Shown: positions 29,879 to 38,834 of the stretch, one piece after another
Layout: each line of letters starts with the position of its first letter
How positions within the stretch are numbered: the first letter of the stretch is position 1
DNA from: Geothrix sp. 21YS21S-2
Lineage (GTDB): Bacteria > Acidobacteriota > Holophagae > Holophagales > Holophagaceae
NCBI RefSeq assembly: GCF_030846775.1
Contig: NZ_CP132910.1
Span: 4,591,001 to 4,655,000, forward strand
DNA length: 64,000 bases
Direction of reading: 5' to 3'
Position numbers and translations under genes: made by a program
The notes under the pieces: generated by a model
Databases searched by the model: none
Told to the model about the DNA's origin: nothing
What the model saw: the letters and a program-made list of their open reading frames with translations, nothing else

Positions 29879-30212
29879 TCCGGGGTTGTATCTCCAGGAC
29901 ATCCTGGCTGCCTGTTCAAAGATTCTGATCCTTGCCGAAGGTCTGGACCTCGAGGGATTTTCAGATGATTGGCGAACTCGGGACGCCGTTCTCCACAACC
30001 TGGAGGTGGCGGGCGAGGCCGTAAAACGATTACCGGCAGAAATCATTGCTGCCTGTCCCGAAATCCCGTGGAAGCGTATCGCCGGCTTCAGGGACGTGCT
30101 TGCCCATGCCTATTTCTCACTGGATGACGCTATCGTCTGGGACGTTGTCGCCAACCATATTGGACCTCTCCAGGAGACCGTCCGAAGAATCCTGGATCAG
30201 CTGGACGCCTAG
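29868..30212 (+). CDS. hepT: HepT-type HEPN ribonuclease toxin
   Basis: A 114-residue all-helical HEPN protein. The C-terminal half carries GFRDVLAHAYF, which matches the R-x4-H-x-Y motif of HepT toxins: Arg and His form the RNase site and the Tyr is the residue modified by MntA in the characterised pair. The N-terminal LQDILAACSKILILAEG is also typical. It starts with GTG inside the end of mntA. Its stop codon overlaps the convergent response-regulator gene by four bases. Low GC for this genome; likely a horizontally acquired toxin-antitoxin module. Confidence 0.9.
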   Translation: MSRDPGLYLQDILAACSKILILAEGLDLEGFSDDWRTRDAVLHNLEVAGEAVKRLPAEIIAACPEIPWKRIAGFRDVLAHAYFSLDDAIVWDVVANHIGPLQETVRRILDQLDA

Positions 30213-31102
30213 GCCAGGCGGACCTCCGCCCGCACATGGTTCCCCGCCCCCAGGTATTCCAGGCGGTCGAAGCTGTCCATCTTCGCCATGAAGATCCCCC
30301 GTCCGTGGTTGTCGAACAGCCTGGACGGATTGGGCACCACGTAGGTCTTCCAGTCGAAGCCCTTGCCCTGGTCCCGCACCTCGAAGGCGATGCGGTCCGG
30401 GTGGCGGGTGACCTCCACCTCCACCCACTTGTCCTGGTTCTCGGGGAGGGCCTGGCGGCGGTTGATCTCGGCCTTCCAGCCGTTCTTCTCCAGGAGTTCG
30501 CCCTTCTCCGTGTAGGTGATGCCCAGGTTGCCGTGCTCCAGGGCGTTGATGAGGAGCTCCGAGAGGCCGGTGACGATCCGGGTGGGGTCGGGGCAGGCCT
30601 TGGCCAGGAGGTTGGCGAGCTCGTGGCACTCCAGAAGGGTGCGGAAGCGGAAACGGCCGTTCATCATCATGGAGAGCGGCGTGCCCAGGCGCTCCACCTC
30701 GGCGTGGAGCACGCGGATGCGGGCGATGTCCTGGGCGGCGGTCCTGACGATGCCCAGGACCACCCGCTGGGTGAAGGGCTTGGTGAGGTAGTAGTAGGCG
30801 CCGGCCTCCATGCCCCGCTGGATGTCCTCGGGGGAGTTGGAGGCGGTCTGGAGGATGACGGGGAGGTCCTTGAGGTGGGCGTTGGCCTTCATGCGCTTGA
30901 GGACCTGGAAGCCGTTCATGCGGGGCATCACCAGGTCCATGAGGAGGACGTCGAAGGACTCCGGCGCCTTGCGCAGGTAGGCCAGGACCTCCGCCCCGTC
31001 CTCCGCGGCCACGGTCTCCATGCCCGCCTTGCTGAGCACCCGGACCAGGAGCGCGAGATTCGTGGAATCATCGTCGGCGACCAGGACTCGGATCTTGCTC
31101 AT
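30209..31102 (-). CDS. Response regulator with anti-sigma-type ATPase output
   Basis: A 297-residue two-domain regulator. Residues 1-120 are a receiver domain (VLVADDDSTNLALLVRVL, phospho-Asp in VLLMDLVMPRMNGFQVL at about residue 54, Lys in YYLTKPFTQR). A short helical linker follows. About 165-297 are a GHKL ATPase of the RsbW/SpoIIAB type with the N-box SELLINALEHGNLGI and the G-box VRDQGKGFDWKTY, ending GRGIFMAKMDSFDRLEY. Such proteins may release or capture partner switches (anti-sigma style) when phosphorylated. No partner kinase, phosphatase or sigma gene is adjacent. Cytoplasmic. The 27-base gap to the upstream small gene suggests a shared transcript with lepA. Confidence 0.85.
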   Translation of the reverse strand: MSKIRVLVADDDSTNLALLVRVLSKAGMETVAAEDGAEVLAYLRKAPESFDVLLMDLVMPRMNGFQVLKRMKANAHLKDLPVILQTASNSPEDIQRGMEAGAYYYLTKPFTQRVVLGIVRTAAQDIARIRVLHAEVERLGTPLSMMMNGRFRFRTLLECHELANLLAKACPDPTRIVTGLSELLINALEHGNLGITYTEKGELLEKNGWKAEINRRQALPENQDKWVEVEVTRHPDRIAFEVRDQGKGFDWKTYVVPNPSRLFDNHGRGIFMAKMDSFDRLEYLGAGNHVRAEVRLA

Positions 31103-33255: not shown

Positions 33256-34722
33256 ATGGTACGTCTGCTATTGACCCTCCTCCTGAGCCTTCCGGCCCTC
33301 GCCGTGCCCGTGACGGGCCGGGTCACGGACGGCGCCCGGGGCCTGGAAGGGGTCCGGGTCCACCCCGACCGCGGGGTGCGGGTGCGGCCGCGGGTCCAGC
33401 CCCCGGTGGCCTATACCGACGCCCAGGGGGCCTTCTCCCTGGACCTGGACCCGGCCGAAACCCATGTGGTGGTCGAGAAATCCGGGTTCCAGCGGGACCT
33501 GGTCCCGGTGGGGGAGCTGGCGGCCCCGGTGGTGCTGGGCCGGGCCCCGGGCTTCCGGAAGGAGCGGGTGCTGGTGGTGCGCCTGGACTTCCCGGACCAG
33601 GCCCCGTTGCGCACCGACGCCGAGCTGCGGGCCCTCTTCTTCGGGCGGGGCGCGGGGGAGGCCAGCGCCGCCAACTACTTCTACGAGATCTCCAAGGGGA
33701 GCCTGGAGCTGGAGGAGGGGGCCTTCCTCCACCTGGCCGACGCCGTCCATCCCGCCCCCCGCACCGACGCCCAGCGGGGAACCCTGGTCGCCTGGGTCCT
33801 GGAGCGGATCAAGTCCATGGACCTTAAGGCCTACGACCAAGTGGACAACCGCACCGGCGCCTTGCGTCCGGACGGCAAGCCCGACCACCTGTGGGTCGTC
33901 CCGCCCGGCCCCCCGGGCACGGTCACCCGGAGCGTGAAGGAACTCACCGCCATCTGCCTCCTGGAGCCCCTCCCGTGGAACCGCTACGTCCAGTGGCCCG
34001 CGGTCTTCTTCACGGACGAGACCCCCCTGGGCTTCATCGTCCACGAGGCCCTCCACGCCATGGGCGAGAACCGCGTGGACGACTTCTACCTGGATTCCAG
34101 GCACCCGCTCACCGCCGGCGCCTGGGACGTCATGGACGCCGGCATGTTCCGGGGGTGGGACCGCTTCCACCCCGAGGCCGGCCCCTGGCAGGAGGACACG
34201 GCCTACAGCCCCTCCCAGCCCATGGGCTGGGTGCGCGACCGCCTCTGGTACCACGGCGCCTTCAAGGACACCGTGAGCACCCTGCAGGTGCGCCGGGCCT
34301 GGGAGGGCTGGCTGGATCCCCTGGAGCGGGCCCCCCGGGACCTCCCCCAGCGCCTGGTGATCCCCGACCCCCGCCGCCGGGGCCGGTTCTGGGAGCTGAA
34401 CGTGCGCCGCCCGCTGGGCTTCGACCGGGGCCGGGTGGGGGACCGCTGGGGCCCGGGTTACGAAGGCCTGGTCGTGGCCCGGGTGGATCCCGGCCTTCTC
34501 ACCCGGGGCGAGCCCAGGGGCCCCGTGCGGATCGTCGACGCCCACCCCCGCACCCCCGGGCCGCCCGCGCCCAGCTACCCCGGGGGCCGGTGGCAGCTGG
34601 ACGACGCGGCCTTCAACGTGGGCCCCGGCGAGGCGCCCGCGGGCAGGGACGGCCCCCTGTCCTGGGAGGTCCTGGAGGCGGACGCCTCGGGCCGGCTGCG
34701 GGTGCGGGTGAGGGTCAGGTAG
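33256..34722 (+). CDS. Secreted M6-like metalloprotease with carboxypeptidase-regulatory-like domain
   Basis: A 488-residue secreted protein. It has a signal peptide (MVRLLLTLLLSLPALAVP), then a beta-sandwich region (about 20-95, GRVTDGARGLEGVRV, AYTDAQGAFSLDL) like carboxypeptidase regulatory domains. The catalytic-type region (about 110-400) opens VLVVRLDFPDQAP, then AANYFYEISKGSLEL, as in M6 (immune inhibitor A) proteases, and has a zinc site in FIVHEALHAMGENRVDDFY (His263-Glu264-x2-His267). It therefore probably degrades protein outside the cytoplasm. The substrate is unknown. It converges with the histidine kinase gene, overlapping its 3' end by eight bases. Confidence 0.8.
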   Translation: MVRLLLTLLLSLPALAVPVTGRVTDGARGLEGVRVHPDRGVRVRPRVQPPVAYTDAQGAFSLDLDPAETHVVVEKSGFQRDLVPVGELAAPVVLGRAPGFRKERVLVVRLDFPDQAPLRTDAELRALFFGRGAGEASAANYFYEISKGSLELEEGAFLHLADAVHPAPRTDAQRGTLVAWVLERIKSMDLKAYDQVDNRTGALRPDGKPDHLWVVPPGPPGTVTRSVKELTAICLLEPLPWNRYVQWPAVFFTDETPLGFIVHEALHAMGENRVDDFYLDSRHPLTAGAWDVMDAGMFRGWDRFHPEAGPWQEDTAYSPSQPMGWVRDRLWYHGAFKDTVSTLQVRRAWEGWLDPLERAPRDLPQRLVIPDPRRRGRFWELNVRRPLGFDRGRVGDRWGPGYEGLVVARVDPGLLTRGEPRGPVRIVDAHPRTPGPPAPSYPGGRWQLDDAAFNVGPGEAPAGRDGPLSWEVLEADASGRLRVRVRVR

Positions 34723-35779
34723 CTTCCGGCAGGGTGATGCGGAACCGGCTGCCCCTTCCGGGAGCGCTCGTGACCTGGATGCTGCCGCCGTGGCGGCGCA
34801 GGGTCGAATGGACGCTGGCGAGCCCCAGGCCCGTGCCGCGCTCGCCCTTGGTGGTGAACATGGGGGTGAAGAGCTGGCGCTGCACCTCATTGGTCATGCC
34901 CACCCCGTCGTCGGCGATCTCCACCACCGCCCCTCCAGTCTCCCTGAGCGAGCGGACCCGCACGGTGCCCTGGCCCTGGATGGCGTCGACGGCGTTGCGC
35001 AGCAGGTTCAGCAGGGCGTCGCGGAGCTCGGGGCCGTCCCCCGCGACCGGCAGGCTCCCGGGGACGAGGTCGGTGCGGAACCGGATGCCGCGCCCTTCGT
35101 CCAGGGCGGCCCTGTCCGCGAAGGAGCGCGCGAACTCCACCGCCGTGCGGAGGGCCTCGTTCAGGTCCAGCCGCCCCGGACTGCGGGGGAGGTCGGGCTT
35201 GGCGATCTCCAGGCAGCGGGTCACCAGGGAGGTGCCGTCCCCCACCGCCTGGAGGACCCTGGCCAGGTGCCGGTCCACCTCCGGATCCGCCCGCTCCCGG
35301 GCGGCCTCGGCGCTCATCTGGACGACGGTGAGGAGGTTGTTGAAGTTGTGGGCCACCTTGGCGGCCACCGAGCCCAGCTCGCTGAAGCGCTGGCTCTGCA
35401 GGATGCGCTCCCTGAGCAGCTCCCGTTCCGTCACGTCGGCCACGAAGATGACGCAGAGGTACTCCTCGCCCTTCCGGAAAGGGTGGAGGTGGATCCGCAC
35501 CTGGCGCGCCCCCAGGGCGAAGGGGAACGTGAAGTCGAATTCGACCTGGTCCTCGCCGCGCTCCATGAGGTCCTTGAACCGGCCGTGGAACTCCCGGACC
35601 TCGGTGCAGGGCGCCACGTCCCGGAAGAAGTTCCTCCCGACCACCTCCTCCCGCCGCCGGCCGGAGATCTGCTCCTCCCGCTGGTTGTAGTAGAGGATCT
35701 CGCCCTGGTCGTTCACCACGATCACGCCCAGGGGCAGCAGCTCCAACGTCGCGAAATCAAGGGACGCCTCGATGCCCAT
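34715..35779 (-). CDS. Histidine kinase with photoactive-yellow-protein-like PAS domain
   Basis: A 354-residue soluble sensor kinase. The N-terminal PAS domain (about 1-115) closely follows photoactive yellow protein. Relative to H. halophila PYP the chromophore residues line up with a constant offset of 11: Tyr31 (Y42), Glu35 (E46), Ser39 (T50), Arg41 (R52) and Cys58 (C69), the last within GRNFFRDVAPCT. A kinase core follows with phospho-His in AAKVAHNFNNLLTVV (about residue 145), N-box LLNLLRNAVDAI and G-boxes DDGVGM and GTGLGLASVH. It has no membrane segment. I took the ATG at 35779 because the family begins close to this PAS; the frame could extend upstream to 35884. Whether it binds p-coumarate is not known, and no coumarate ligase or TAL is in the window. 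Confidence 0.87.
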   Translation of the reverse strand: MGIEASLDFATLELLPLGVIVVNDQGEILYYNQREEQISGRRREEVVGRNFFRDVAPCTEVREFHGRFKDLMERGEDQVEFDFTFPFALGARQVRIHLHPFRKGEEYLCVIFVADVTERELLRERILQSQRFSELGSVAAKVAHNFNNLLTVVQMSAEAARERADPEVDRHLARVLQAVGDGTSLVTRCLEIAKPDLPRSPGRLDLNEALRTAVEFARSFADRAALDEGRGIRFRTDLVPGSLPVAGDGPELRDALLNLLRNAVDAIQGQGTVRVRSLRETGGAVVEIADDGVGMTNEVQRQLFTPMFTTKGERGTGLGLASVHSTLRRHGGSIQVTSAPGRGSRFRITLPEAT

Positions 35780-35943: not shown

Positions 35944-36501
35944 ATGTCCGAGCAGGATCGTCAGATCACCGAAGCCGTCGCGCGCGAGGCGTCCAGACTC
36001 CGGAACTTCATCCGGAAATGGGTGCCCGAGGAAGCCGACGCGGAGGACGTCCTCCAGGAGGTGTTCTTCGAGCTGGTGGAAGCCCAGCGCCTGATGACGC
36101 CGCTGCAGGAAGCGGGGGCGTGGATGTTCCGGGTGGCCCGCAACCGCATCACCGACCTCTTCCGGCGCCGGGGGAACGAGCTCCGGCGGCAGGCCCCCTT
36201 CGAAAAGGACCCGGAGGGCGAGGAGCGGGCCCTGGAGGACTTGCTGCCCTCCCGGGACGCGGGGCCCGAGGCCGCCTTCGCGAGGCGGGTGCTGCTGGAG
36301 GAGCTGGACGCGGCTCTGGAGGAACTGCCCGAGGAGCAGCGGGCGGTGTTCGTGGCCCACGAGCTGGAAGGGCGGAGCTTCAAGGAACTGGCGGCGGCCA
36401 CGGGGCTCCCCGTGAACACGCTGCTGTCGAGGAAACACTACGCGGTAGTGCATCTGCGCAAGCGCCTGCGGGCGATCTACGAGGAGTACGTCGATGTTTA
36501 G
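35944..36501 (+). CDS. ECF-type RNA polymerase sigma factor
   Basis: A 185-residue sigma-70-family factor of the ECF size. Region 2 is seen in the N-terminal half (DAEDVLQEVFFELVEAQ, GAWMFRVARNRITDLFRRR) and region 4 in the C-terminal half (LEELPEEQRAVFVAHELEGRSFKELAAATGLPVNTLLSRKHYAVVHLRKRL). The ATG at 35944 is used. It overlaps the next gene by eight bases, so the small membrane protein downstream is probably its partner or its target; no classical anti-sigma domain is recognisable there. The 164-base gap upstream is shared with the divergent PYP-like kinase and holds a TTCCCGGGAA palindrome but no clear promoter I trust. Confidence 0.9.
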   Translation: MSEQDRQITEAVAREASRLRNFIRKWVPEEADAEDVLQEVFFELVEAQRLMTPLQEAGAWMFRVARNRITDLFRRRGNELRRQAPFEKDPEGEERALEDLLPSRDAGPEAAFARRVLLEELDAALEELPEEQRAVFVAHELEGRSFKELAAATGLPVNTLLSRKHYAVVHLRKRLRAIYEEYVDV

Positions 36502-36832
36502 GCACAAGGGAATGACCGTCCGCAAGGGGATCGGCATCGCCGTCCTGGGCGTGGCGGCGGTGGCGGTGCTGGGGTACGTCGTGATGGGGCTGTGGAACGG
36601 ACTGATGCCGGCGATCTTCGGGCTGCGGGCCATCCACTTCTGGCAGGCCGTGGGCCTCCTGGTGCTGAGCCGGATCCTGTTCGGGGGCTTCCACAGGTCC
36701 CACGGCGGCGGCTGGCACCGGCGCCATCACATGATGCGGCGCTGGGAGGGCATGACCCCGGAGGAGCGGGAGAAGTTCCGGCAGGGCCTCCGGGGCCGGC
36801 ACTGCGGCTGCGGCGAAACGGGGCAGGTGTAG
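36494..36832 (+). CDS. Small membrane protein with His/Cys-rich tail
   Basis: A 112-residue protein with two hydrophobic helices (IGIAVLGVAAVAVLGYVVMG, and LRAIHFWQAVGLLVLSRILFGG) and a soluble tail of unusual composition (GGFHRSHGGGWHRRHHMMRR, later EREKFRQGLRGRHCGCGE). The tail holds many His plus a CGCG cluster and could bind metal. It overlaps the end of the ECF sigma gene by eight bases and is likely cotranscribed. A role as an anti-sigma-like regulator or a regulated membrane protein is possible but not shown. The gap after it holds a long hairpin beside the intron. Confidence 0.7.
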   Translation: MFRHKGMTVRKGIGIAVLGVAAVAVLGYVVMGLWNGLMPAIFGLRAIHFWQAVGLLVLSRILFGGFHRSHGGGWHRRHHMMRRWEGMTPEEREKFRQGLRGRHCGCGETGQV

Positions 36833-36912: not shown

Positions 36913-37505
36913 GTGCGCCAGGCCAAGCCTGGGCGAGGAGGATGGATGACCTAAGACAGACTGAAACCTCGCAATGGAGCCCAGCGGGGAGGCAGCAAGC
37001 CCCGCCCGGCAAAGCTGGCCAGCAGCCGGAACCGAGTCTTGCGTGGGGAAGGGCGACCGACCTCGTGAAGCGTAGACAGGGAGTGCATGGGCCGTGTGAT
37101 GGAGCCCCGAAAGCATCCAACCGTGGGAGTCGACGCCGTTCTCCGATCGGAAGACAGCACCCGAAGGTCGCAAGGGCCTGACCGTAGGGTCCCACCGGGG
37201 TCATAGAGCAGGGCACGTGCACAGGGGTTCCCCAGGAACCTGGGAGATCCAGCCATCTCCGCCAACAACCCAGTGGTGAGGGAAGCCACGTAAAACGAAC
37301 CCAGGCTCGCCGGGGGGTGCCGCCCCCGGCGGGAGCGAACAGCCGGCACAGGGCGGTACCGCAAACTGAAGGAAACGAAGGAGCGCGGGAGGGGTGGCCG
37401 GAAGTCGGAGCAGCTCATAGTAGCGATGATCGCGGGGAACCGGGCCGCCGGGACCCGCTGGAGCCAAGGAGCTGCCGGATCACGGAACCGTTGAAGGGAA
37501 AGATA

Positions 37506-38834
37506 ATGGGTGCAATGACATCCAACAGCGTCTCCACGAAACAACAACGGATCGCAGAACTGGCCAGGATCCACCCGGAGGTGGCTTTCACCTCCTTGGC
37601 CTACCACATGGACCTGGACTGGATGAAGGAAGCCTTCGGGCGCACCCGCAAGGATGGGGCGACCGGGGTGGACGGCGTGACGGGCAAGGAATACGGGGAA
37701 AACCTGGAGTCCAACCTCCAGAGCCTCCTGAACCGGGCTAAGAACGGCGACACCTACAAGGCCCCTCCAGTCCGGAGAACCTACATCCCGAAAGGGGATG
37801 GCAGCCAACGCCCCCTGGGCATTCCCGCCTTCGAAGACAAGGTCCTGCAAAGGGCCGTGGTGATGGTGATGGAACCGCTCTATGAGCAGGACTTCCTGGA
37901 CTGCTCCTACGGGTTCAGGCCCGGGCGCTCCGCGCACATGGCGCTGGAGGCGATTTGGCAGGGGTTGATGGACATGGGGGGAGGCTGGGTGCTTGACGTG
38001 GATATCCGTAAGTATTTCGATACTTTGGACCACGGGAAGCTGCGGGAAATCCTTGACCTGCGGATGAAGGACGGCGTTCTGAGGCGCCTGATCGGCAAAT
38101 GGCTCAACGCGGGCGTGCTGGAGAAAGGATGCATCACGCACCCGGAAACCGGCTCGCCCCAGGGCGGGGTGGTCAGTCCGATGCTCGCCAACATCTACCT
38201 CCACGAGGTGCTGGACGTGTGGTTTGAAAGGGAGGTCAAGCCCCGACTCCGGGGTCGGGCCTTCCTGGTGCGCTACGCGGACGACTTCGTGATGGGCTTT
38301 GCCCAGGAGGAGGATGCCAAGCGGGTTATGGAAGTCCTGCCCAAGCGGTTCGAGCGGTATGGCCTGACGATCCACCCGGATAAGACCCGGCTGGTGGAGT
38401 TCTGGAAGCCGAGGGAGCCCAGGGACCCCAATGGGGGACCAGGCCACTTCGACTTCCTGGGATTCACCCACTACTGGGCCACGGCCAAGAACGGCCGGTG
38501 GGTGGTGAAGCGGAAGACCGCGAAGAGCCGGATGAGTCGGGCGCTCACGAAGATCGGGGAGTGGATGGCCAAACACCGCCACCTCCCGGTGCGCGAGCAA
38601 TGGCGGACGATCAACCAGAAACTGGTCGGTCACTTCAGGTATTACGGGATCACGGGGAACTCCAGGGCCCTGGCGCACTTCCGCTATGAAGTTGGGCGAA
38701 GGTGGCGTGGATGGCTCAACCGGAGGTCCCAGCGGGCCCGCATGACCTGGGATCGCATGAACAAGCTTCTGGCTCGGTTCCCACTGGCCCCAGCCATCAG
38801 TTACGCATCGAAACTACGTCCTCAGCGACCGTGA
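37506..38834 (+). CDS. ltrA: Group II intron reverse transcriptase/maturase
   Basis: A 442-residue intron-encoded protein. Reverse transcriptase motifs are clear: GATGVDGVTGKEYGENL, RRTYIPKGDGSQRPLGIPAFEDKVLQRA, YGFRPGRSAHMALEAI, the catalytic VRYADDFVMGF, and GLTIHPDKTRLVEFW. The X/maturase region follows (KLVGHFRYYGITGNSRALAHF and WLNRRSQRARMTWDRMN). The C-terminus ends at ISYASKLRPQRP with no HNH endonuclease domain. It should promote splicing of its host intron and copy it into DNA at new sites. I chose the ATG at 37506; the frame is open further upstream but that part is ribozyme. The stop is four bases before domain V. Confidence 0.93.
   Translation: MGAMTSNSVSTKQQRIAELARIHPEVAFTSLAYHMDLDWMKEAFGRTRKDGATGVDGVTGKEYGENLESNLQSLLNRAKNGDTYKAPPVRRTYIPKGDGSQRPLGIPAFEDKVLQRAVVMVMEPLYEQDFLDCSYGFRPGRSAHMALEAIWQGLMDMGGGWVLDVDIRKYFDTLDHGKLREILDLRMKDGVLRRLIGKWLNAGVLEKGCITHPETGSPQGGVVSPMLANIYLHEVLDVWFEREVKPRLRGRAFLVRYADDFVMGFAQEEDAKRVMEVLPKRFERYGLTIHPDKTRLVEFWKPREPRDPNGGPGHFDFLGFTHYWATAKNGRWVVKRKTAKSRMSRALTKIGEWMAKHRHLPVREQWRTINQKLVGHFRYYGITGNSRALAHFRYEVGRRWRGWLNRRSQRARMTWDRMNKLLARFPLAPAISYASKLRPQRP

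Follow-up and report, generated by a model that had tools for sequence, protein, structure and literature searches.

A soluble histidine kinase with a PYP-family PAS domain in Geothrix sp. 21YS21S-2, and an aryl-polyene cluster as candidate source of its chromophore

The locus and its neighbours

The window analysed here is a 64,000-nucleotide stretch of Geothrix sp. 21YS21S-2 (contig NZ_CP132910.1, positions 4,591,001 to 4,655,000; genome G000). An intact open frame on its reverse strand, running from 35779 to 34715 (gene 34715..35779), encodes a soluble protein of 354 aa, referred to here as PYP-HK, in which a PAS domain of the photoactive yellow protein (PYP) family is joined to HisKA and HATPase_c domains. 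A GAGG sequence lies shortly 5' of the ATG, and no transmembrane segment was found in the 354-aa sequence. A gene for a 488-aa putative secreted protein (33256..34722, forward strand), which served as a syntenic landmark, converges with PYP-HK and overlaps it by 8 bp. On the other side, across an intergenic gap of 164 bp, lies a divergent ECF sigma factor gene (35944..36501, forward strand), which is overlapped by a gene encoding a 112-aa protein (36494..36832, forward strand). Just beyond the ECF gene, a group II intron reverse transcriptase/maturase (RVT_1, GIIM; 37317-38834, forward strand) marks an intron insertion in the genome. Elsewhere in the same genome a DNA photolyase gene (G000:C1:4698011-4698415, L196) hints at light exposure.

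The initial annotation linked PYP-HK to the divergent ECF gene, a link that is contradicted by synteny. Genome G066 carries a PYP-HK ortholog, 54% identical and with the Y/E/C residues kept, in the same slot, flanked by an M28 peptidase on one side and the block of the 488-aa protein and LepA on the other, and no ECF gene was found beside it in the comparison. Conversely, in G067, the nearer relative as judged by LepA (96%), the ECF gene and the adjacent 112-aa gene are retained and PYP-HK is absent, with about 70 bases separating the ECF and 488-aa genes (L187:9075-9146) and no trace of PYP-HK between them. Since each gene thus occurs without the other, the ECF neighbour appears to be incidental, and a partnership between the two was rejected.

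No response regulator gene adjoins PYP-HK. A REC-HATPase_c_2 response regulator (30209..31102, reverse strand), the HATPase_c_2 part of which is anti-sigma-kinase-like, lies 3.6 kb away next to lepA, and is conserved in three other genomes of genus g1 (G066, G067 and G069), one of which has no PYP-HK. Because it is kept also where PYP-HK is missing, this regulator is a weak candidate for the partner of the kinase.

The PYP-family PAS domain, its pocket and the kinase core

Residues 1-116 of PYP-HK (35432..35779, reverse strand) were assigned to the PYP family from a match to TIGR02373 (photo_yellow) and from the PDB matches of the modelled domain. The TIGR02373 match scored 100-103 bits over residues 6-113, and the next-best PAS domain of the same genome 27.6 bits, a gap of 75 bits; PYP-HK is the only PYP among the approximately 100 PAS matches of the genome (101 with the Pfam PAS model). 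Its score (100.4) falls below the equivalog cutoff of 143.05 bits, placing PYP-HK outside that equivalog. The cutoff was reached in 0 of the 396 genomes of the phylum that were searched, and TIGR02373 covers only ∼20% of PYP homologs (PMC9664959). A phmmer search of the PDB with PYP-HK returned PYP structures at E values of about 1e-20. Residues 1-118 were also modelled by themselves (pLDDT 84.4), and the first 39 Foldseek matches of this model in the PDB were all PYP or PYP-derived (FAST) structures at a TM of about 0.8, including the Ppr kinase's PYP domain; heme PAS domains ranked after these. A careful structural comparison, put forward in the initial annotation as the means by which its reading might fail, therefore upholds the assignment. 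The PYP family is defined by its conserved Cys69 (PMC9664959) and, judged as in that work, PYP-HK has a fold nearest to PYP and a cysteine (C58) at the Cys69 position, accompanied by Y31 and E35 at those of Tyr42 and Glu46.

Alignment with Halorhodospira halophila PYP is free of gaps, at an offset of 11, to about PYP residue 109, with 37/94 residues identical. The five pocket residues named at the outset are thereby confirmed as counterparts: Tyr31 (codon 35687..35689, reverse strand, as are those that follow) of Tyr42, Glu35 (35675..35677) of Glu46, Ser39 and Arg41 (in the Ser39-Gly40-Arg41 codons, 35657..35665, matching Thr50-Gly51-Arg52) of the family-variable Thr50 and Arg52, and Cys58 (35606..35608) of Cys69, the position of the chromophore thioester. 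Also kept, in PYP numbering, are I31, N43, I49, G51, F62, F63, V66, A67, P68, T70, F75, G77, F79, F92, F96 and V105. The offset is constant through the five pocket residues but ends near residue 99, where PYP-HK has a 2-residue insertion. When PYP-HK, 17 further PYP domains from the phylum and H. halophila PYP are aligned, positions Y42, E46, C69, F62, F63, A67, P68 and F96 are invariant and positions 50 and 52 are variable; weak conservation of the latter two among PYPs is also noted in the accessible text of PMC12826048. Thus, PYP-HK shares with the H. halophila protein the domain family, Y42/E46/R52/C69, the aromatic pocket and the fold (TM about 0.8, 37% identity), but differs from it in the kinase fusion, in Ser for Thr50, Leu (Leu89) for Met100 and Phe for both Tyr94 and Tyr98, in the absence of Trp119, in an N-cap shorter by about 11 residues, in the insertion, and in having no pyp-TAL-pCL operon. 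The original description of a full chromophore set, although correct as to the five matches, therefore needs trimming, given the variability at 50/52, the substitutions at Met100, Tyr94 and Tyr98, the loss of Trp119 and the short N-cap.

The fusion of this domain directly to a soluble kinase core was borne out, with a linker of ordinary length and all of the kinase boxes. The HisKA dimerisation and phospho-acceptor region (residues 136-196; 35192..35374, reverse strand), assigned from Pfam HisKA and the fold, scored 24.1 bits, slightly under the cutoff of 26.9, and its H box, VAHNFNN with the phospho-acceptor His144, is intact. The HATPase_c domain (residues 247-353; 34721..35041, reverse strand) scored 88.8 bits against Pfam PF02518, and its N, G1, F and G2 boxes are likewise intact by motif position. 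From Asp115 of the DVTERE linker motif to His144 (35348..35437, reverse strand) the spacing is 29 residues, as in 9/11 measurable PAS-kinases of the fetched loci, a count that includes PYP-HK itself and its G066 ortholog; a spacing shared with most of the measured PAS-kinases suggests that the linker is in an ordinary signalling register. For the full-length protein, AlphaFold2 gave a model with a mean pLDDT of 92.9, which is matched best in the PDB by the light-regulated LOV-FixL kinases 4gcz and 8a7f. As a query against the genome contigs, the full-length protein retrieved chiefly kinase-only relatives.

A candidate chromophore source in an aryl-polyene cluster

The search of the genome for coumarate ligase and tyrosine ammonia lyase that was initially proposed gave a divided answer. 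A canonical pCL (TIGR02372 above cutoff) was found neither in this genome nor in any of 22 relatives, but a TAL/PAL-type lyase and a pCL-like ligase are present together. The best match to TIGR02372 (4-coumarate ligase) in the genome, at 124.6 bits and below cutoff, is an AMP-ligase at 2.5506 Mb, for which TIGR02372 is in turn the best family model, and it is adjoined by an aromatic ammonia-lyase at 2.552 Mb. Both genes lie in a block (G000:C1:2536000-2562200; L100, L101), 2.07 Mb distant from PYP-HK, that also encodes an acyl carrier protein, ketosynthases, a ketoreductase, an ApeP-like dehydratase, an MMPL exporter, a glycosyltransferase and an acyltransferase, and that is, by its predicted gene content, an aryl-polyene cluster.

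The cluster lyase matched best the model of the BagA/FevW tyrosine ammonia-lyase (395.6 bits, below cutoff), and scored 297.5 bits against the FlxA model, the cutoff of which is 700 bits. At motif 2, which distinguishes lyase types (PMC3992019), it has the Gln of TAL/PAL enzymes. The second lyase of the genome is a clear HutH (614.7 bits, with Ser-His and Glu motifs), from which the predicted cluster enzyme is distinct. A substrate assignment from motif 1 was tried and set aside as not decisive, the Tyr-His found there being neither the Ser-His of HutH nor of the R. sphaeroides TAL type; motif 1 is reported to be misleading for FlxA too (PMC3992019). A precedent for the gene arrangement exists in the flexirubin cluster of Chitinophaga pinensis, in which FlxA (TAL) and FlxY (4-coumarate ligase) are encoded, as here, inside an aryl-polyene pigment cluster (PMC3992019). 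FlxA has the same TAL/PAL-type Gln at motif 2, although the present lyase falls below the FlxA cutoff and is fitted best by BagA/FevW. Together, the cluster lyase and ligase are a plausible candidate source of chromophore for PYP-HK. Ligases of aryl-polyene clusters may load ACP instead of CoA.

Among the relatives, genera g1 and g8, including G000, G066, G061 and G063, are the only ones with both the lyase (>70% identity) and a pCL-like ligase. The pair is absent from the g3 PYP carriers tested and from five carriers of other families; a TAL-like gene is absent from the g3 genomes altogether, and a pCL-like gene from those g3 genomes tested. Over the whole order the cluster lyase is present in 4 of the 24 PYP carriers (Fisher p=0.25), and outside g3 in 4/5 (p=0.011, without correction for relatedness); the co-occurrence is accordingly only suggestive, and was rejected as proof of supply. 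Since most related PYP carriers have neither gene, conservation of the Y/E/C residues is independent of the lyase and ligase. A search of the accessible literature for PYP together with aryl polyenes found no paper naming both.

Light sensing, its alternatives and related PYPs

With a PYP-family domain on a soluble kinase core, a blue-light two-component input, as first suggested, is still the most likely reading, and PYP-HK is probably a compact soluble blue-light receptor kinase (probability about 0.6). We infer chromophore binding and a photocycle of the following kind. Cys58 would carry a p-coumaroyl thioester, the phenolate of which is held by Tyr31 and Glu35, and blue light would isomerise this chromophore. 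Strain would then leave the PAS domain by its last strand and travel along the DVTERE coiled-coil linker into the HisKA/HATPase core, such that phosphorylation at His144, in whichever direction it is regulated, and then that of a response regulator would change. The simplest source of chromophore would be tyrosine, acted upon by the ammonia-lyase of the aryl-polyene cluster, with activation by the neighbouring AMP-ligase. That the kinase does take its p-coumarate from this pathway, so that a photoprotective pigment cluster doubles as supplier and the receptor may report on or regulate the cluster, is a more tentative proposal, which we regard as possible but rather doubtful.

The main rivals to light sensing with a chromophore made in this way are an exogenous chromophore and redox sensing without a chromophore. 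In the latter, Cys58 would be free to act as a redox or electrophile sensor in a PYP pocket inherited without its ligand, a reading that draws on the lack of a canonical pCL in the genome, on the absence of an obvious chromophore pathway from most related PYP carriers and on the redox use proposed for some Ppr relatives (PMC9664959). The proposed redox cases, however, lost Cys69 and gained other cysteines, whereas Y42/E46/C69 and the aromatic pocket are kept in both PYP-HK orthologs, and the redox reading is considered unlikely. A working light receptor supplied with p-coumarate from outside, for example from plant phenolics, is judged to be no more likely and no less; many of the family's PYP carriers have neither a TAL-like nor a pCL-like gene, and environmental uptake is suggested in the accessible text of PMC12826048, but G000 and G066 each have both lyase and ligase, and an activating ligase would be needed all the same. 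Far less probable is a single light-response unit of PYP-HK and the ECF gene, for which the divergent arrangement around a common gap speaks and against which the occurrence of each without the other in G066 and G067 weighs heavily. Finally, short motifs can recur by chance among some 100 PAS domains, but the bit-score gap of 75, the E value to PYP, the fold search and the conservation in the ortholog refute a fortuitous residue match in an ordinary PAS domain, the probability of which is negligible.

The output of PYP signalling is poorly understood, and most PYPs are single-domain proteins without a known partner. At 354 aa, soluble and free of a phytochrome module, PYP-HK would offer a simple test object for a PYP photocycle driving phosphorylation. 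It may be regarded as a natural counterpart of the engineered LOV-kinase YF1: in YF1 and SB2F1, both LOV-FixL kinases, a photosensory PAS domain is likewise coupled directly to HisKA via a helical linker in a soluble protein, but PYP-HK is natural and its chromophore, as assigned from sequence, would be of the PYP rather than the flavin type. Ppr of Rhodospirillum centenum, a PYP-phytochrome-histidine kinase, also bears an N-terminal PYP on a histidine kinase, and has Ser at position 50 like PYP-HK (PMC12826048, accessible text); PYP-HK differs in having no phytochrome module, and no PHY domain was found in the genome. PYPs with Ser at position 50 have so far been found to absorb at 432-434 nm (PMC12826048, accessible text). 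Closest in architecture are 15 short histidine kinases that carry PYP at the N-terminus, for which the accessible text of PMC12826048 does not describe pairing with an aryl-polyene cluster. Short PYP-kinases and Acidobacteriota PYPs are already published, and what is new is the testable idea of a shared chromophore source. Such a link to a pigment cluster would offer an answer to the absence of TAL/pCL from most pyp operons; many PYPs of the phylum with an intact pocket show no visible chromophore pathway.

The host had been thought unexpected for such a receptor, a view that is only partly supported. Acidobacteria are listed among PYP carriers (PMC9664959), Acidobacteriota account for 2.4% of the 984 PYP sequences counted in the accessible text of PMC12826048, and PYP carriers were found in 21/396 genomes of the window's phylum. 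Within the order, 24/77 genomes have a real PYP, in the form of PYP-HK (G000, G066), PYP-V4R (G058), EAL-PYP (G061, G063) or the short PYPs of g3. In the tree the two PYP-HKs pair with support of 99/98, and the pair branches at an open fork close to the g3 PYPs, with a long stem.

The g3 proteins (L106-L122, L124) are single-domain PYPs from ORFs of ∼150-190 aa with Y/E/C conserved, most of them with a CxxC...HGICxxC N-terminus. This zinc-ribbon-like segment (CAWCG...HSHGICxxCY), which has no Pfam match in L107, is missing from the PYP architectures named in the accessible text of PMC12826048. EAL proteins with a C-terminal PYP (L104:610-1833, L126, L168) are found both in genus g8 and in G237, which belongs to a distant family of the phylum, and the PYP domains of these proteins are sisters in the tree (97/97), suggesting horizontal transfer. 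The PYP-V4R fusion of G058 (L125:1402-2484) keeps Y/E/C and lies just upstream of an open frame resembling a receiver/cyclase protein.
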